From Limibacter armeniacum (GTDB lineage Bacteria; Bacteroidota; Bacteroidia; Cytophagales; Flammeovirgaceae), in contig NZ_JBAJNO010000008.1 in NCBI RefSeq assembly GCF_036880985.1, positions 1,178,001 to 1,242,000 on the forward strand: 64,000 nt of DNA, given 5' to 3'. Positions 2,659-52,292 of this stretch are shown piece by piece. The position numbers and the translations under genes were made by a program. The stretch's first letter is position 1, and every line of letters starts with the position of its first letter. Below the pieces are notes generated by a model. The model searched no databases, had not been told where the DNA came from, and saw only the letters and a list, made by a program, of their open reading frames with translations.

Positions 2659-3849
2659 TCAATATTGCTCTTTGACTTTTTTCAAAATAATAACAGAAAT
2701 AATGGTCAGTAAAACGCCCACATAGCCCGCTATTTCATAGTGGTCATATTTGCCATCAGGTGTTTGAGTGAGGATAAAACCAGCACTGAATGCAGCTGTA
2801 GCTGAAGCAAATTGTTGTACTGCAGCTCTGATACTCATAAAGCTTCCTCGTTGAGCAGGAAGCGCTGTACTGAGAATAATGGCATTTCCAGGGATTGACC
2901 TTCCTCCTGTAATAAAGAAAACAGTGGTAAATATCAGGACGAACCAAACTGGAGCAGATTCAAGGTTTGTAATGATGACCATAGGTATTGTAGCGAGAAA
3001 AGCTAAAATAGCCATAACAGGAAACTTGCCAATTTGGTCTGAAAGCTTCCCAATAAACGGAGAAGTGAAGATAGTGATCACACCGCCGGCAAAGTAGATC
3101 CAAGTTAACTGTACTTCTTCAAAACCAACGTTGGAAACCATATAAGGAGCAAGAAATGGTACAATGATAAAGTGTCCGCAAAACATAGCGAAAGCACCGG
3201 CAAGAGCTTTAAGCTGATTTGGGTTTTTAAATACCTGTAATAGTTGTGGGAGTGGGGATTGCCCTTTATTCAACTTTACATGTGTATCCACTACGGGAAT
3301 ATAGCGAAAAAGCAAAACCAACAAAACTAATCCCATCGCTGCAATAGCAAAAAATGGTACCCGCCAACTAAACGTTACGCCAAAGTACAGTCCGAAGGGA
3401 ACTCCCAAAGCTGAGGCAGGAGAAAAGCCCATCATCAAGATCCCAATGCCTTTGCCTCTGTCCTGTGGTTTGATTAGGTCTCCAACCAGTGCAAACAGTA
3501 GCGCATTGATTACACCTCCAAAAATCCCAGTAAATGCTCTGGCTGCAACCAATGTATAGTACCCTTGAGCAAGGCCACAGAATATGGTTCCTATAATAAA
3601 ACCAATATATAAGGTCAATAGGAAGCGCTTTCGCTCAATTTTATCAATAAAGAAAATAGAGGTAACTCCTGAGATACCAGCGGCAAAAGTATAAGCAGAT
3701 ACAACAGTACTCCATTGTGGAGGTGATAATGAGAAGACAGTTTGAAATTCGTGCCCTAAAGGCATCATAACCATGAAGTCCAAAATATTGGTAAAGCTAA
3801 CAGATGCCAGCAGGTAAAGAATGGTTTTTTCTTGCTTGCTAAAAGCCAT
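2659..3849 (-). CDS. MFS transporter (DHA1-like)
   Basis: 396 aa with about twelve hydrophobic segments and no signal peptide, typical of a major facilitator superfamily carrier. After TM2 comes a basic loop (FFIDKIERKRFLL) and after TM8 a second one (GKLSDQIGKFP), the pseudo-symmetric loop pair of MFS proteins. The overall style (early LDFMVMMPLG helix, long hydrophobic repeats) resembles drug or metabolite efflux carriers of the DHA1 group. The substrate is unknown. It is a single gene, divergent from the glycosyltransferase that follows. Confidence 0.85.
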   Translation of the reverse strand: MAFSKQEKTILYLLASVSFTNILDFMVMMPLGHEFQTVFSLSPPQWSTVVSAYTFAAGISGVTSIFFIDKIERKRFLLTLYIGFIIGTIFCGLAQGYYTLVAARAFTGIFGGVINALLFALVGDLIKPQDRGKGIGILMMGFSPASALGVPFGLYFGVTFSWRVPFFAIAAMGLVLLVLLFRYIPVVDTHVKLNKGQSPLPQLLQVFKNPNQLKALAGAFAMFCGHFIIVPFLAPYMVSNVGFEEVQLTWIYFAGGVITIFTSPFIGKLSDQIGKFPVMAILAFLATIPMVIITNLESAPVWFVLIFTTVFFITGGRSIPGNAIILSTALPAQRGSFMSIRAAVQQFASATAAFSAGFILTQTPDGKYDHYEIAGYVGVLLTIISVIILKKVKEQY

Positions 3850-3982
3850 AAACTAATCTGACTTGCAGATGATTTCTAGTGGAATATTAATTTTAAAGCT
3901 TTTCTCTTTTAGAAATCGCAAGGGGAGCTTTTTAAAGAAGAAAAGACTAGCTGGTATAAAAGGATAAGCACTATTTCAACTG

Positions 3983-34733: not shown

Positions 34734-35072
34734 ATGATCCGAGGGATACTCATTATACTAGCCTTTCTGGAATTAGGAAGTCTTCTCAATGAATGGATAG
34801 GAACGGCTGTTCCGGGAAGTGTAATAGGGATGCTACTATTGTTTGTAGCTTTACAAGTTCGGTTGGTTAAGCTGGAACATGTGAAACCAACCGCTGATAT
34901 TCTGACCCAAAATATGGCGTTGTTTTTTGTGCCTGCTGGTGTAGGGCTGATGAATTACTTTGGTTTCATAGCCGACCATTGGATGGTCATTATTCTGGCA
35001 TCAGTGATCAGTACAGTAATGGTGTTGGCTACAGTAGGTTTGATTCATCAGAAACTGGAAAAGAAGGATTAA
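34734..35072 (+). CDS. lrgA: LrgA/CidA family holin-like protein
   Basis: 112 aa, four transmembrane segments. The family motif PGSVIGMLLLF and the loop LTQNMALFFVPAGVGLM are present. LrgA-type proteins are holin/antiholin-like and modulate murein hydrolase activity or export of metabolites. It is followed after 4 bases by lrgB, forming the usual operon. No LytSR gene lies next to it, although a LytS/LytTR pair occurs about 11 kb away in this window; in Gram-positives that pair controls lrgAB, so a link is conceivable but unproven here. Confidence 0.9.
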   Translation: MIRGILIILAFLELGSLLNEWIGTAVPGSVIGMLLLFVALQVRLVKLEHVKPTADILTQNMALFFVPAGVGLMNYFGFIADHWMVIILASVISTVMVLATVGLIHQKLEKKD

Positions 35073-35076
35073 CGTT

Positions 35077-35769
35077 ATGATAGAATTTTTTGATAACGAA
35101 GTACTGGTATTGGCACTTACCTTGGGTGTCTTTTATTTGTCTCAACAAGTTTATCAGAAACTTAAGTGGGCACTTTTCCACCCTGTTTTATTAAGTGTAG
35201 GTATCCTGATTGTAATACTGTTGTTGGCAGATGTGGATTATAGCCTTTACAAGGAGCATAGCCATATGATAGATTTCTTTTTGGCGCCATCTGTTGTGGC
35301 ATTGGGAGTTGTCTTGTATGAGCAAGTGCACCATGTACGAAAGAATGTCTTGGCGATACTTGTCTCACTCTTTGTTGGCAGTTTTGTAGGGATACTCTCA
35401 GCATGCGGAGTTGCATGGTTGTTAGGAGCGGATCAGGTACTGATCGCAACACTTGCCCCTAAGTCTGTCACCACACCAATTGCGATGAGTGTCGTTGAGC
35501 AGATAGGTGGGATTCCTTCATTGGTTGCTGTAATTGTTATCGCAGTTGGGATATTGGGAGCCGCCATTGGACCATTTATTCTGAAACTTTTAAATGTTAA
35601 CAGCAGAATGGCTATTGGACTCGCTTTAGGAGCCTCTGCACATGGTATCGGAACATCAAAAGCATTGGAGTTAGGGGCACTGGAAGGTGCCGTAGGTGGG
35701 TTAGCGATTGGTTTAATGGGGGTTATGACGTCTTTTTTGGTACCTCTAATTTATGGTTGGTTCATCTAG
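35077..35769 (+). CDS. lrgB: LrgB family membrane protein
   Basis: 230 aa, about seven transmembrane segments. Family motifs: LAPKSVTTPIAMSVVEQIGG, and GLALGASAHGIGTSKALELG with the conserved His. It works with LrgA; in plants and bacteria the fused or paired proteins act in glycolate/pyruvate transport or in control of autolysis. Starts 4 bases after the lrgA stop, so translation is likely coupled. Confidence 0.92.
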   Translation: MIEFFDNEVLVLALTLGVFYLSQQVYQKLKWALFHPVLLSVGILIVILLLADVDYSLYKEHSHMIDFFLAPSVVALGVVLYEQVHHVRKNVLAILVSLFVGSFVGILSACGVAWLLGADQVLIATLAPKSVTTPIAMSVVEQIGGIPSLVAVIVIAVGILGAAIGPFILKLLNVNSRMAIGLALGASAHGIGTSKALELGALEGAVGGLAIGLMGVMTSFLVPLIYGWFI

Positions 35770-35819: not shown

Positions 35820-35849
35820 TTGTCTGTTAAGATTTATTTACTATATTTG
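35820..35849 (+). promoter_or_regulatory. Complete Bacteroidota promoter
   Basis: TTG (35820-35822), 19-base spacer, TATATTTG (35842-35849) is a full match to TTG-N19-TAnnTTTG. It is not followed by a protein gene on the plus strand but by a terminator about 85 bases further on. Confidence 0.7.
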
Positions 35850-35854
35850 TGTCA

Positions 35855-35962
35855 TAGGGAAATCTTTAGCGCCTTGCACTAATTATTTCTTCTGACAATT
35901 AATTTTTCATAGCTGGTTGAAAGAATCACAATGGGCAGACTCTCGTCTGCCCTTGTGTTTTT
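35855..35962 (+). ncRNA. Candidate small RNA, about 105 nt
   Basis: An orphan transcription unit: a consensus promoter ending at 35849 and a perfect terminator hairpin GGGCAGAC-TCTC-GTCTGCCC (35933-35952) with a T-rich tail TTGTGTTTTT. No reading frame of useful length lies between. It sits between lrgB and the 3' end of the convergent amidase gene. No known RNA family (6S, SRP, tmRNA, riboswitch) was recognised. Start and end are estimates from the promoter and terminator. Confidence 0.55.
35933..35962 (+). terminator. Intrinsic terminator of the candidate small RNA
   Basis: 8-bp GC-rich stem GGGCAGAC / GTCTGCCC with a TCTC loop and a T-rich tail. It could also stop read-through from lrgB. 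Confidence 0.85.
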
Positions 35963-35988: not shown

Positions 35989-37371
35989 TTATTTAGCTCC
36001 CTCTTGCCCTTCTTTTGAATAACTATTCAGTTTGCCTTCTTGCTCAAAATACTGAAGAATCCCTTTGTAATATGAGTTAGCGACATCTACAATTCTTTTG
36101 CTGATGACCCCATTTTGAAGGTCGTTGTTCTTGAGAGCATGAAGCTCCTTTTCATTATCTTGAAGAAGTGGTTCTCCATAGCAAATAGGCGTGTTGATTA
36201 GTCTGCAAAGCCTTAGGTTACGGGCATAAACGCCGTCTTCCAGTCTGATGGCTAATTTTTGAAGGTAGAGAGGCTCTTCTGATGGGAGAACAGCAGGTAC
36301 TTGAAGTTGCTTCTCGAACTGACGCATTACTAAAGCAGAGAGTTCAGCCGATTCTTTTACCTGTTCACTAATAAGGGTTCTTACAAAATCAAATCGGTCA
36401 CGGGGAAGGCGCAGTTCATATTTTAAAAATGACCCCGGTACGAATACCATCCCAAAGTTACGCTGCGATGGTTTTTTCCATCCATAATTCTTGTCATCTG
36501 CATTGAAATGAATAATGACAGTCAGGTCAGGTTTAAAGTAGTTTATTTTTTCTGCCCTAGTCTCAAGGTCTTTGTGGAGAAAGTGATCACGGTATATCTT
36601 ATACTCAGGAGATCTGCTGAACAGGTGTTTGATCTGGTCACCATTCATGCCTTTTTCTCTCAGTTCAAGCTTTAACTTGCTTTTCTTCCAGTTTTGATAC
36701 GAAAGGCCATTGGCACCATGGTTAGGTCCATTTCTGGAAATAAACACTTCAGCTCCTTGTTTCTCCAGACTGTCTCTGAGTAGGTAAGCAGTTGAGAGTG
36801 TAAGGTCTCCTTCCATCAGTTGGATTTTTTCTCCCTTATGCTGCATTTCAATAAAACGACCTTCCGCTTTAGCCATTCCCATGTCTCCAGCTATATGACC
36901 AGGGTCAATAGCAATCCTAATTCCTGAAAGTGGTTTGTTTCGGCTGGTTGGAAGCAGTTGGTGGTTGCGTTTCAGAATCTTGATGGTACTCAGTACGGCA
37001 GGAGAAAGCGGAGTTGTCCCTTTCCGTTTGTAAATCTCAAACTGATAGTTGCGGTCTGCAAATTCCAAAAGCTCTTTGAATGCAGGGAGTTCTTCCCAAG
37101 ACAAATAAAACTCGGGCTTCTGTGCTTCCTTATCCTTTGGAGATGCATACATGGTAATTCCCTCATTGCCGATATGAAAGTAGCCATTAAGTTGGTAGTC
37201 CTTTACCAAAAACCTTTTGGCTCTGTTATTATAAAGTTCGACAAGCCTTTCAGTTTCCGGTTGTGGAGGCTGAGCAAGCAGTGGCTTAGCACCGAGCAAA
37301 TACAATAGTACTAGGCAAGCGGTACGAAGCAACAGAGAGTGTCCGGAGGATTGAACGCTCATTTTTGACAT
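35989..37371 (-). CDS. N-acetylmuramoyl-L-alanine amidase, Amidase_3 family
   Basis: 460 aa with an N-terminal hydrophobic signal (LLLRTACLVLLYLLGAKPLLAQ). The catalytic domain begins at IRIAIDPGHIAGDMG (zinc His), continues with MEGDLTLSTAYLLRDSLEKQGAEVFISR (second ligand Glu) and VIIHFNADD (third ligand His). Cleaves the bond between muramic acid and the stem peptide. It is longer than typical AmiC, with a 140-residue N-terminal domain and a large insert around 200-280 before the HFNADD motif, which may be regulatory. Single gene. Confidence 0.85.
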   Translation of the reverse strand: MSKMSVQSSGHSLLLRTACLVLLYLLGAKPLLAQPPQPETERLVELYNNRAKRFLVKDYQLNGYFHIGNEGITMYASPKDKEAQKPEFYLSWEELPAFKELLEFADRNYQFEIYKRKGTTPLSPAVLSTIKILKRNHQLLPTSRNKPLSGIRIAIDPGHIAGDMGMAKAEGRFIEMQHKGEKIQLMEGDLTLSTAYLLRDSLEKQGAEVFISRNGPNHGANGLSYQNWKKSKLKLELREKGMNGDQIKHLFSRSPEYKIYRDHFLHKDLETRAEKINYFKPDLTVIIHFNADDKNYGWKKPSQRNFGMVFVPGSFLKYELRLPRDRFDFVRTLISEQVKESAELSALVMRQFEKQLQVPAVLPSEEPLYLQKLAIRLEDGVYARNLRLCRLINTPICYGEPLLQDNEKELHALKNNDLQNGVISKRIVDVANSYYKGILQYFEQEGKLNSYSKEGQEGAK

Positions 37372-51914: not shown

Positions 51915-52292
51915 GAGGGAAGACAGTTTATTTTACTTAGGAAGAACGTGAACTATGAATTAGTTTCACGATTTATCACGCCCTTTCAGGACTTAAAAAA
52001 GTCCTCTCCTTTACGATGGGATAATCGCACTGTGTAACAGTCATTGCTGAAGTATTTAGCTCCCTTCGGGGCAGGTGTAAACCACTGAATAAAAAGTCAA
52101 TCTTAATCCTTCTGTCGCTATCCCATAAAGCCTTTTCAATGCATAAGTCCCGAAGGGACGAAATATATTAGCGATGGGTAAAACCCATCGTTGGCAGACA
52201 CTAATTTTTAAGTCCTGAAAGGGCGACATAATCCATCGTTTACATCACGAAATATTTATGATGTTTTCCATCAAATATGAGAGGGTTTGAAA
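51915..52292. other. 378-bp repeat-rich intergenic region
   Basis: Composed almost entirely of REP-like palindromic pieces (see adjacent repeat entries), including AAGTCCCGAAGGGACGAA (52145-52162) and GCTCCCTTCGGGGC (52062-52075). No gene seen. Confidence 0.6.
51945..52024. repeat. REP-like repeat, copy 2
   Basis: Contains AACGTGAACTATG, CACGCCCTTTCAGGACTT and TTACGATGGGAT in the order of copy 1 (45651-45716). An inverted partial copy (AAGTCCTGAAAGGGCG, 52210-52225) lies 230 bases on. Confidence 0.6.

Follow-up and report, generated by a model that had tools for sequence, protein, structure and literature searches.

Between lrgB and a convergent gene for an N-acetylmuramoyl-L-alanine amidase, the stretch of DNA analyzed here (64,000 nt from Limibacter armeniacum, hereafter the window) contains a compact putative promoter-to-terminator unit. 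The features of the locus are as follows.

34734 to 35072, plus strand: lrgA (Pfam LrgA), outside the unit and given for context only
35077 to 35769, plus strand: lrgB (Pfam LrgB), given for context only
35820 to 35849, plus strand: predicted promoter, consisting of TTG (35820 to 35822), a 19-nt spacer and TATATTTG (35842 to 35849), which fits the Bacteroidota TAnnTTTG consensus
35854 to 35962, plus strand: predicted small RNA gene of approximately 109 nt, with ends predicted from the promoter and terminator positions and from family conservation
35855 to 35894, plus strand: 5' hairpin, the structure of which is kept in part of the family while its sequence varies
35905 to 35923, plus strand: conserved core TTTCATAGCTGGTTGAAAG, of which the exact pattern TTYCATAGCTGGTTGAAAG is conserved across genomes of the order
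35908 to 35918, plus strand: 11-nt seed CAUAGCUGGUU, the exact complement of AACCAGCUAUG
35927 to 35962, plus strand: predicted intrinsic terminator, with its stem at 35927 to 35957 and a T-tract at 35958 to 35962
35989 to 37371, minus strand: N-acetylmuramoyl-L-alanine amidase gene (Pfam Amidase_3), convergent and given for context only

An earlier, sequence-only reading of this DNA had proposed that a complete promoter, a stretch free of reading frames and a GC-rich terminator together form an orphan transcription unit, with the 3' end of the RNA directed toward the amidase transcript. The parts are present as it described them. TTG is followed by 19 nt and by TATATTTG ending at 35849; no ORF of at least 40 amino acids, the threshold that we used for a gene-length frame at this locus, lies between 35770 and 35988, from lrgB to the amidase gene; the terminator contains an 8-bp stem with six G-C pairs and a 4-nt loop (35933 to 35952); and the convergent amidase gene, on the minus strand, ends at 35989. 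The terminator stem is extended by CACAA/TTGTG (five more pairs, with one unpaired T between) to 35927 to 35957, and TTTTT follows directly at 35958 to 35962. Given that the flavobacterial TAnnTTTG element is described as lying at positions -12 to -5 (PMC9723704), transcription is predicted to start at 35854 and to yield an RNA of approximately 109 nt. The predicted RNA folds better than 200 of 200 shuffled sequences (z -4.6). Simple scans of 6 kb found 23 promoter-like sites, compared to 15.6 (sd 4.7) in shuffles, and 10 terminator-like sites, compared to 5.5 (sd 2.2). Such sites are common enough that neither a promoter nor a terminator is compelling singly, and it is conservation, rather than the parts of the unit alone, that makes the case for a small RNA. 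A cis-acting leader or riboswitch was rejected, as the next gene in the window is on the opposite strand and the flanking genes differ between loci.

A DNA search of 38 genomes, comprising the window's own and its relatives, found the 3' half of the unit, comprising the core and the terminator, in eight further genomes from the window's family. E values ran from 5e-16 to 1.4e-8, and the surroundings differ among the eight. Confinement of conservation to the terminator, which the sequence-only reading had named as a sign against a small RNA, is not what we find: the core 5' of the terminator is the most conserved part. Members follow a common plan of a TAnnTTTG promoter, a 5' hairpin, TTYCATAGCTGGTTGAAAG, a terminator hairpin of varying sequence and a T-tract, and the invariant core that is predicted to be exposed in this family is CAUAGCUGGUUGAA. 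Of 390 genomes of the order, 49 have the exact 19-mer TTYCATAGCTGGTTGAAAG, at 57 sites in total, and none has the reversed pattern. The 19-mer also occurs in 49 stretches in a collection of 84,980 species genomes, 39 of which bear titles of Cytophagales or of taxa that we, in part, presume to belong there; on the strength of these titles, we take the order to be Cytophagales. Flexithrix dorotheae, Cytophaga aurantiaca and Thermoflexibacter ruber are among the named carriers. Among the ten stretches with other titles, six are identical to copies in genomes of the order (L053, L062, L071, L091, L094 and L095), and L063, titled outside Cytophagales, shows the full plan; the Sphingobium and Methanomassiliicoccus matches fall within reading frames and, like L076, are apparently due to chance. 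Three 19-mer matches were left out of the counts as chance or coding (L054, L069 and L076), as were L037, L092 and L327, which represent one site, although the promoter count of 57 members given below still included L327. Two of the identical copies (L091 and L095) come from metagenome bins titled Thalassovita or Thalassobius; their identity to copies in genomes of the window's family makes these titles look wrong.

A shorter, 15-nt core, CATAGCTGGTTGAAR, was found in 76 of 156 genomes of the order, compared to 3 for the reversed control. All 76 are among the 92 genomes of 11 families, while none of the 64 genomes of ten other families of the same order has it. By family, the 15-nt core is present in 15/15 genomes of f1 (the window's family), 7/9 of f2, 10/10 of f4, 6/6 of f5, 4/10 of f9, 12/12 of f15, 11/14 of f16, 1/1 of f17, 1/1 of f18, 2/7 of f20 and 7/7 of f22. 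These matches were checked in part, and the checked ones include a match that looks coding (genome G007 C243, L225) and one that is a gene start (genome G032 C42, L205). The search used exact patterns rather than a covariance model and misses divergent members, so the absence from f11, f13, f19 and f21 refers to the exact 15-mer only; in family f19, a promoter and a hairpin do accompany two sites (L279 and L280). In genus g3 of f1 the 19-mer is absent from nine genomes, the shorter core is present in all eight genomes examined, and a hairpin lies 5' of the core in the four loci read. A draw of 118 genomes from the phylum, five of them from the order, gave two core matches, namely the window's own and one in G473; the latter is the single match among 113 genomes outside the order, is unlike a member in sequence and is probably due to chance. 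It is very probable that this DNA encodes a genuine bacterial small RNA, one not listed before, that is present in about half of the sampled families of the order.

The architecture of the family is consistent with an independent transcription unit. Of 57 members, 38 have the promoter pattern TANNTTTG no more than 105 nt upstream, compared to an average of 5.0 and a maximum of 13 in mononucleotide shuffles. In 56 of 57 members, folding of the 52 nt 3' of the core gives z below -2. The corresponding figure for the 48 nt 5' of the core is 28 of 57, and the 5' hairpin is therefore not universal. Where the hairpin can be aligned, it shows covariation: in 20 chosen alignable sequences, the window's included, 95.3% of cells are paired, 10 of 13 pairs have changed on both sides, and the score was reached by none of 500 shuffles, with slid registers giving 33 to 48%. 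In the window's copy, this hairpin is separated from the core by a linker that is 12 to 14 nt longer. In 54 of 57 members, the 11-nt seed is predicted to be less paired than the RNA overall, and in the window RNA the mean unpaired probability is 0.67 in the seed compared to 0.36 overall. The unit thus has what appear to be its own promoter and its own intrinsic terminator, along with a conserved, predictably exposed seed and no gene-length reading frame, all of which are marks of a small RNA. A different explanation is that the unit belongs to the gene before it (lrgB here, a helicase in other loci) as its 3' UTR or terminating hairpin, with no function of its own. Although copies often sit immediately behind a gene on the same strand, the separate TAnnTTTG promoter in 38 of 57 members, the retention of the core while upstream genes change, and the variation of the terminator sequence around a fixed core make this very improbable.

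Variants of the plan were also seen. In another class, nothing separates the predicted start site from the seed. A pattern of promoter plus seed occurs at 58 sites in 33 of 380 genomes, compared to four matches for the reversed control, though a portion of these sites, mostly in f11 and f13, resembles chance matches or coding sequence; the commonest gap between TAnnTTTG and the seed is exactly 5 nt (14 of 44 among the loci examined). A short Sporocytophaga-type subclass (L163, L195, L212, L213 and L215), with TAnnTTTG, ACCATAGCTGGTTGA and then AAAAACACCC, is perhaps a further small RNA subfamily. The loop of the 5' hairpin holds a second, partial copy of the seed, GCTGGTT, in L065, L101, L311 and L312.

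The sequence-only reading had recognized no known RNA family and had called the unit a candidate new small RNA. No Rfam 15 model matched at its gathering threshold in the window unit or in the 10 loci scanned, and the best match in the unit in a permissive scan was MicC, with 20.8 bits compared to a threshold of 90. The proposal of a new small RNA is well supported by the conservation, the promoter enrichment, the covariation and the lack of an Rfam match. Elsewhere in the window, on the minus strand at 52146 to 52190, the Rfam Acido-Lenti-1 RNA scored 44.9 bits (gathering 37) and is the sole gathering-level match. We found no report of the family in the portions of the literature consulted, including those on small RNAs of Cytophagales, Flammeovirga and Cytophaga hutchinsonii and surveys of structured RNAs, and a literature search with the letters of the core returned one unrelated match in the text covered. 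The main texts of two surveys (PMC11109978 and PMC8632094) contain no words beginning with Cytophaga, Bacteroid or Flammeovirga.

The position of the unit beside lrgAB and an amidase gene had suggested a role in autolysis. Although several loci have little flanking sequence, this role is left without support, as the neighboring genes change from locus to locus: among the loci examined, lrgAB neighbors the RNA in the window's genome and otherwise only in two genomes from a single other genus, while a homolog of the amidase is near it in just one further locus, in Thermoflexibacter. Directly upstream of 14 of 52 sites, on the same strand, is a gene of a DEAD-box helicase cluster defined by BLASTP (L055, L056, L058, L064, L066, L071, L073, L080, L081, L086, L087, L096, L098 and L101). 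Nine of these 14 also share the next upstream gene, which belongs to a dihydroorotase-like cluster (Pfam Amidohydro_1); one helicase and one amidohydrolase were scanned with Pfam and the remainder assigned by BLASTP clustering. We rejected a functional tie to the helicase, since the adjacency holds for 14 of 52 sites only and is read as an inherited location.

Evidence on function comes mainly from family f16, which includes Cytophaga and Sporocytophaga genomes. The 11-nt seed CAUAGCUGGUU is exactly complementary to AACCAGCUAUG, whose last three letters form a start codon. The motif AACCAGCTATG is present in all 46 carrier genomes searched, as is guaranteed by the RNA gene itself, and the reversed control, which gave lower counts, is a poor one because it contains CG; the contexts of the sites were therefore read instead. 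A site was called start-like, by a heuristic, if a frame of at least 50 codons begins at the ATG of the motif, with an in-frame stop no more than 25 codons upstream and no earlier in-frame ATG, and identical contexts were counted once. In f16, all listed sites besides the 19-mer copies were read in 12 genomes; for other families, G113 and twelve further genomes were read likewise, except for site G007:C478. Sites with YTTC before the motif were set aside as resembling the small RNA (8 of 54 in f16, two of which, L182 and L205, are themselves start-like, and 12 of 51 elsewhere), while several short Sporocytophaga sites and some G113 copies that look like further small RNAs stayed among the remaining 46 and 39, which works against the claim.

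By this measure, 20 of the 46 sites in f16 are start-like, compared to 1.8 expected (95 of 2463 ATGs). Outside f16, the count is 5 of 39, with 2.0 expected (P 0.05). A one-base control motif, AACCAG[AGT]TATG, was start-like in 1 of 50 contexts in the same 12 genomes (Fisher 3.7e-7); the three variants have 95 sites, and the 50 that were read comprise 30 supplied by the search and 20 hand-picked from five genomes. Paralogs and orthologs inflate the raw count of 20 of 46, and after related genes were collapsed by hand, 14 of 40 f16 sites were start-like (Fisher 2.6e-5). Complements of the seed are thus enriched at predicted translation starts in one carrier family, as expected of a base-pairing small RNA. 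For 13 sites in 11 loci, the predicted duplexes with a consensus core have energies of -17.8 to -28.9 kcal/mol. The genes with the motif at or near their start include IS200-like transposases (Pfam Y1_Tnp; L165 and L170) and 23S rRNA intervening-sequence proteins (Pfam 23S_rRNA_IVP; L183, L186 and L190, with L210 below the cut-off), and other Pfam names among them are PDDEXK_3, ChlI, Response_reg, alpha/beta hydrolase and DUF7793. One further gene has a sub-threshold double zinc ribbon, and several have no Pfam match. In L181, which was excluded from the start-like count, the motif is at or near the start of a GIY-YIG gene. Going beyond Pfam, we take the double-zinc-ribbon protein to be ComF-like and the ChlI gene to be ComM-like.

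We consider it fairly probable that the RNA is a trans-acting, base-pairing antisense RNA that blocks translation starts. It would be transcribed from its own promoter, end at its own terminator and present the exposed, invariant core between the 5' hairpin and the terminator hairpin. The first 11 nt of the core would pair with the start codon together with the preceding 8 nt, and this pairing would block translation initiation of several mRNAs at once. The phylum is known for making little use of Shine-Dalgarno signals. A wider reading of the gene list, which we hold to be speculative and rather unlikely, is that the seed silences selfish and DNA-processing genes (IS200-like transposases, 23S rRNA intervening-sequence proteins, GIY-YIG and PD-(D/E)XK nuclease-like genes, and competence-type genes, ComF-like and ChlI/ComM-like), so that the RNA would act as a genome-defense and DNA-uptake switch across much of the order.

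The window's own genome showed no start-codon regulon of this kind. Its 47 sites of the 9-nt complement CCAGCTATG fall into 42 distinct contexts, the antisense site of the RNA itself included, and four of these are start-like, compared to a background of 4.9%. It has nine AACCAGCTATG sites, one of which is the RNA; among the other eight, only one opens an ORF of at least 50 amino acids (76 amino acids), next to what is presumably a phage-type gene. With no regulon of its own in view, the mechanism proposed for the window's organism, which may be the same as in f16, rests on the shared core rather than on targets of its own. At two near-identical loci in this genome (L107 and L108), AACCAGCTATG overlaps an apparent stop codon and lies ahead of a GC-rich hairpin with a T-run. 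The core pattern is absent from family f13, yet AACCAGCTATG stands there at the starts of ORFs of 419 and 320 amino acids (L275 and L292), and the motif can thus stand at starts without the RNA. Genomes of f5 have up to 14 AACCAGCTATG sites each. The motif was also found in 37 of 46 genomes without the 19-mer (sites were read for 30 loci), a figure that is unusable as a negative control because several of these genomes carry the RNA in other forms.

Three other explanations bear on the pairing proposal. In the first, the RNA would be a decoy or scaffold whose core binds an RNA-binding protein, for example an RRM-domain protein or the DEAD-box helicase encoded beside some copies, and the complement in f16 would be secondary. 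Conservation over 14 to 19 nt goes beyond the 11-nt match, which might be a sign of a protein, and the frequent position downstream of helicase-cluster genes and the lack of a visible regulon in the window's genome fit as well, as does the binding of FopS RNAs by the RRM protein RbpB (PMC11697453). However, a decoy does not predict that the seed complement, but not its one-base variant, should be found at f16 starts, and 38 of 52 sites are away from the helicase cluster; we consider a decoy unlikely. In the second, the unit would be a REP-like or IS200-like-associated remnant or satellite of mobile elements, with AACCAGCTATG shared by descent and not through regulation. Core matches reach 19 in one f15 genome (G149), tandem copies occur in L094, where three copies of the RNA gene lie 382 to 383 nt apart at 3149 to 3932, and Y1 transposase genes are among those with the motif at their start. 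This explanation is quite improbable in view of the single match in 14 of 15 genomes of the window's family, the promoter and covarying structure, the presence of the motif before unrelated genes (ChlI, response regulator, hydrolase and others), the lack of an exact 19-mer in viral contigs, and a plasmid search that returned only two short matches, in Stenotrophomonas, at E 0.3 and none better. In the third, which is hardly credible, the core would mimic a conserved segment of 23S rRNA and titrate a ribosomal factor. The resemblance is to the Escherichia coli segment AUAGCUGGUU; the organism's own 23S rRNA has AUAGCUCGUA at that place, and AGCTGGTT is absent from its 6.3-kb rRNA stretch, so we dropped this idea. 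Start-codon pairing by the seed is the explanation that we retain.

The family has a fixed seed, and its candidate targets among relatives of Cytophaga and Sporocytophaga can be named. Its wide occurrence, together with these two properties, makes post-transcriptional control directly testable in this group.

Several known RNAs resemble the family in part. The Rfam RNAs 6S-Flavo and Flavo-1 are known from Bacteroidetes (PMC2864571), and neither was found in the gathering-level scan of the window or in the permissive scan of the unit. The FopS/GibS RNAs of Bacteroides are also from Bacteroidota, are multicopy in some genomes and pair at start codons; as described, their seed is near the 5' end and pairs near the start codons of several mRNAs, whereas they belong to Bacteroidaceae, are about 65 to 70 nt long, have mainly SusC-type targets and have RbpB as a partner (PMC11697453). 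Rfp18 of Flavobacterium is likewise a Bacteroidota small RNA with one pairing region predicted for several mRNAs, but by its description it is widely conserved in its genus and the pairing region is in its third stem-loop (PMC9723704). We file the RNA described here as a new family of base-pairing small RNAs, set apart from FopS by description. In form, the RNA resembles Yfr1 of cyanobacteria, in which two hairpins, the second of them the terminator, surround an unpaired, ultraconserved 11-nt motif; Yfr1 is reported throughout its lineage, and its motif pairs with mRNAs (PMC2190773, PMC6974561). Yfr1 differs in its motif (ACUCCUCACAC), in its phylum and in its length of 54 to 69 nt, compared to approximately 109 nt here. 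Membership in Yfr1 was rejected, as the core between the two hairpins is CAUAGCUGGUUGAA and not ACUCCUCACAC, and the source that surveyed Yfr1 lists none in Cytophaga hutchinsonii (PMC2190773). After Yfr1, from which it is far removed, the family would be the second instance in which an 11-nt motif has stayed fixed throughout a wide lineage.
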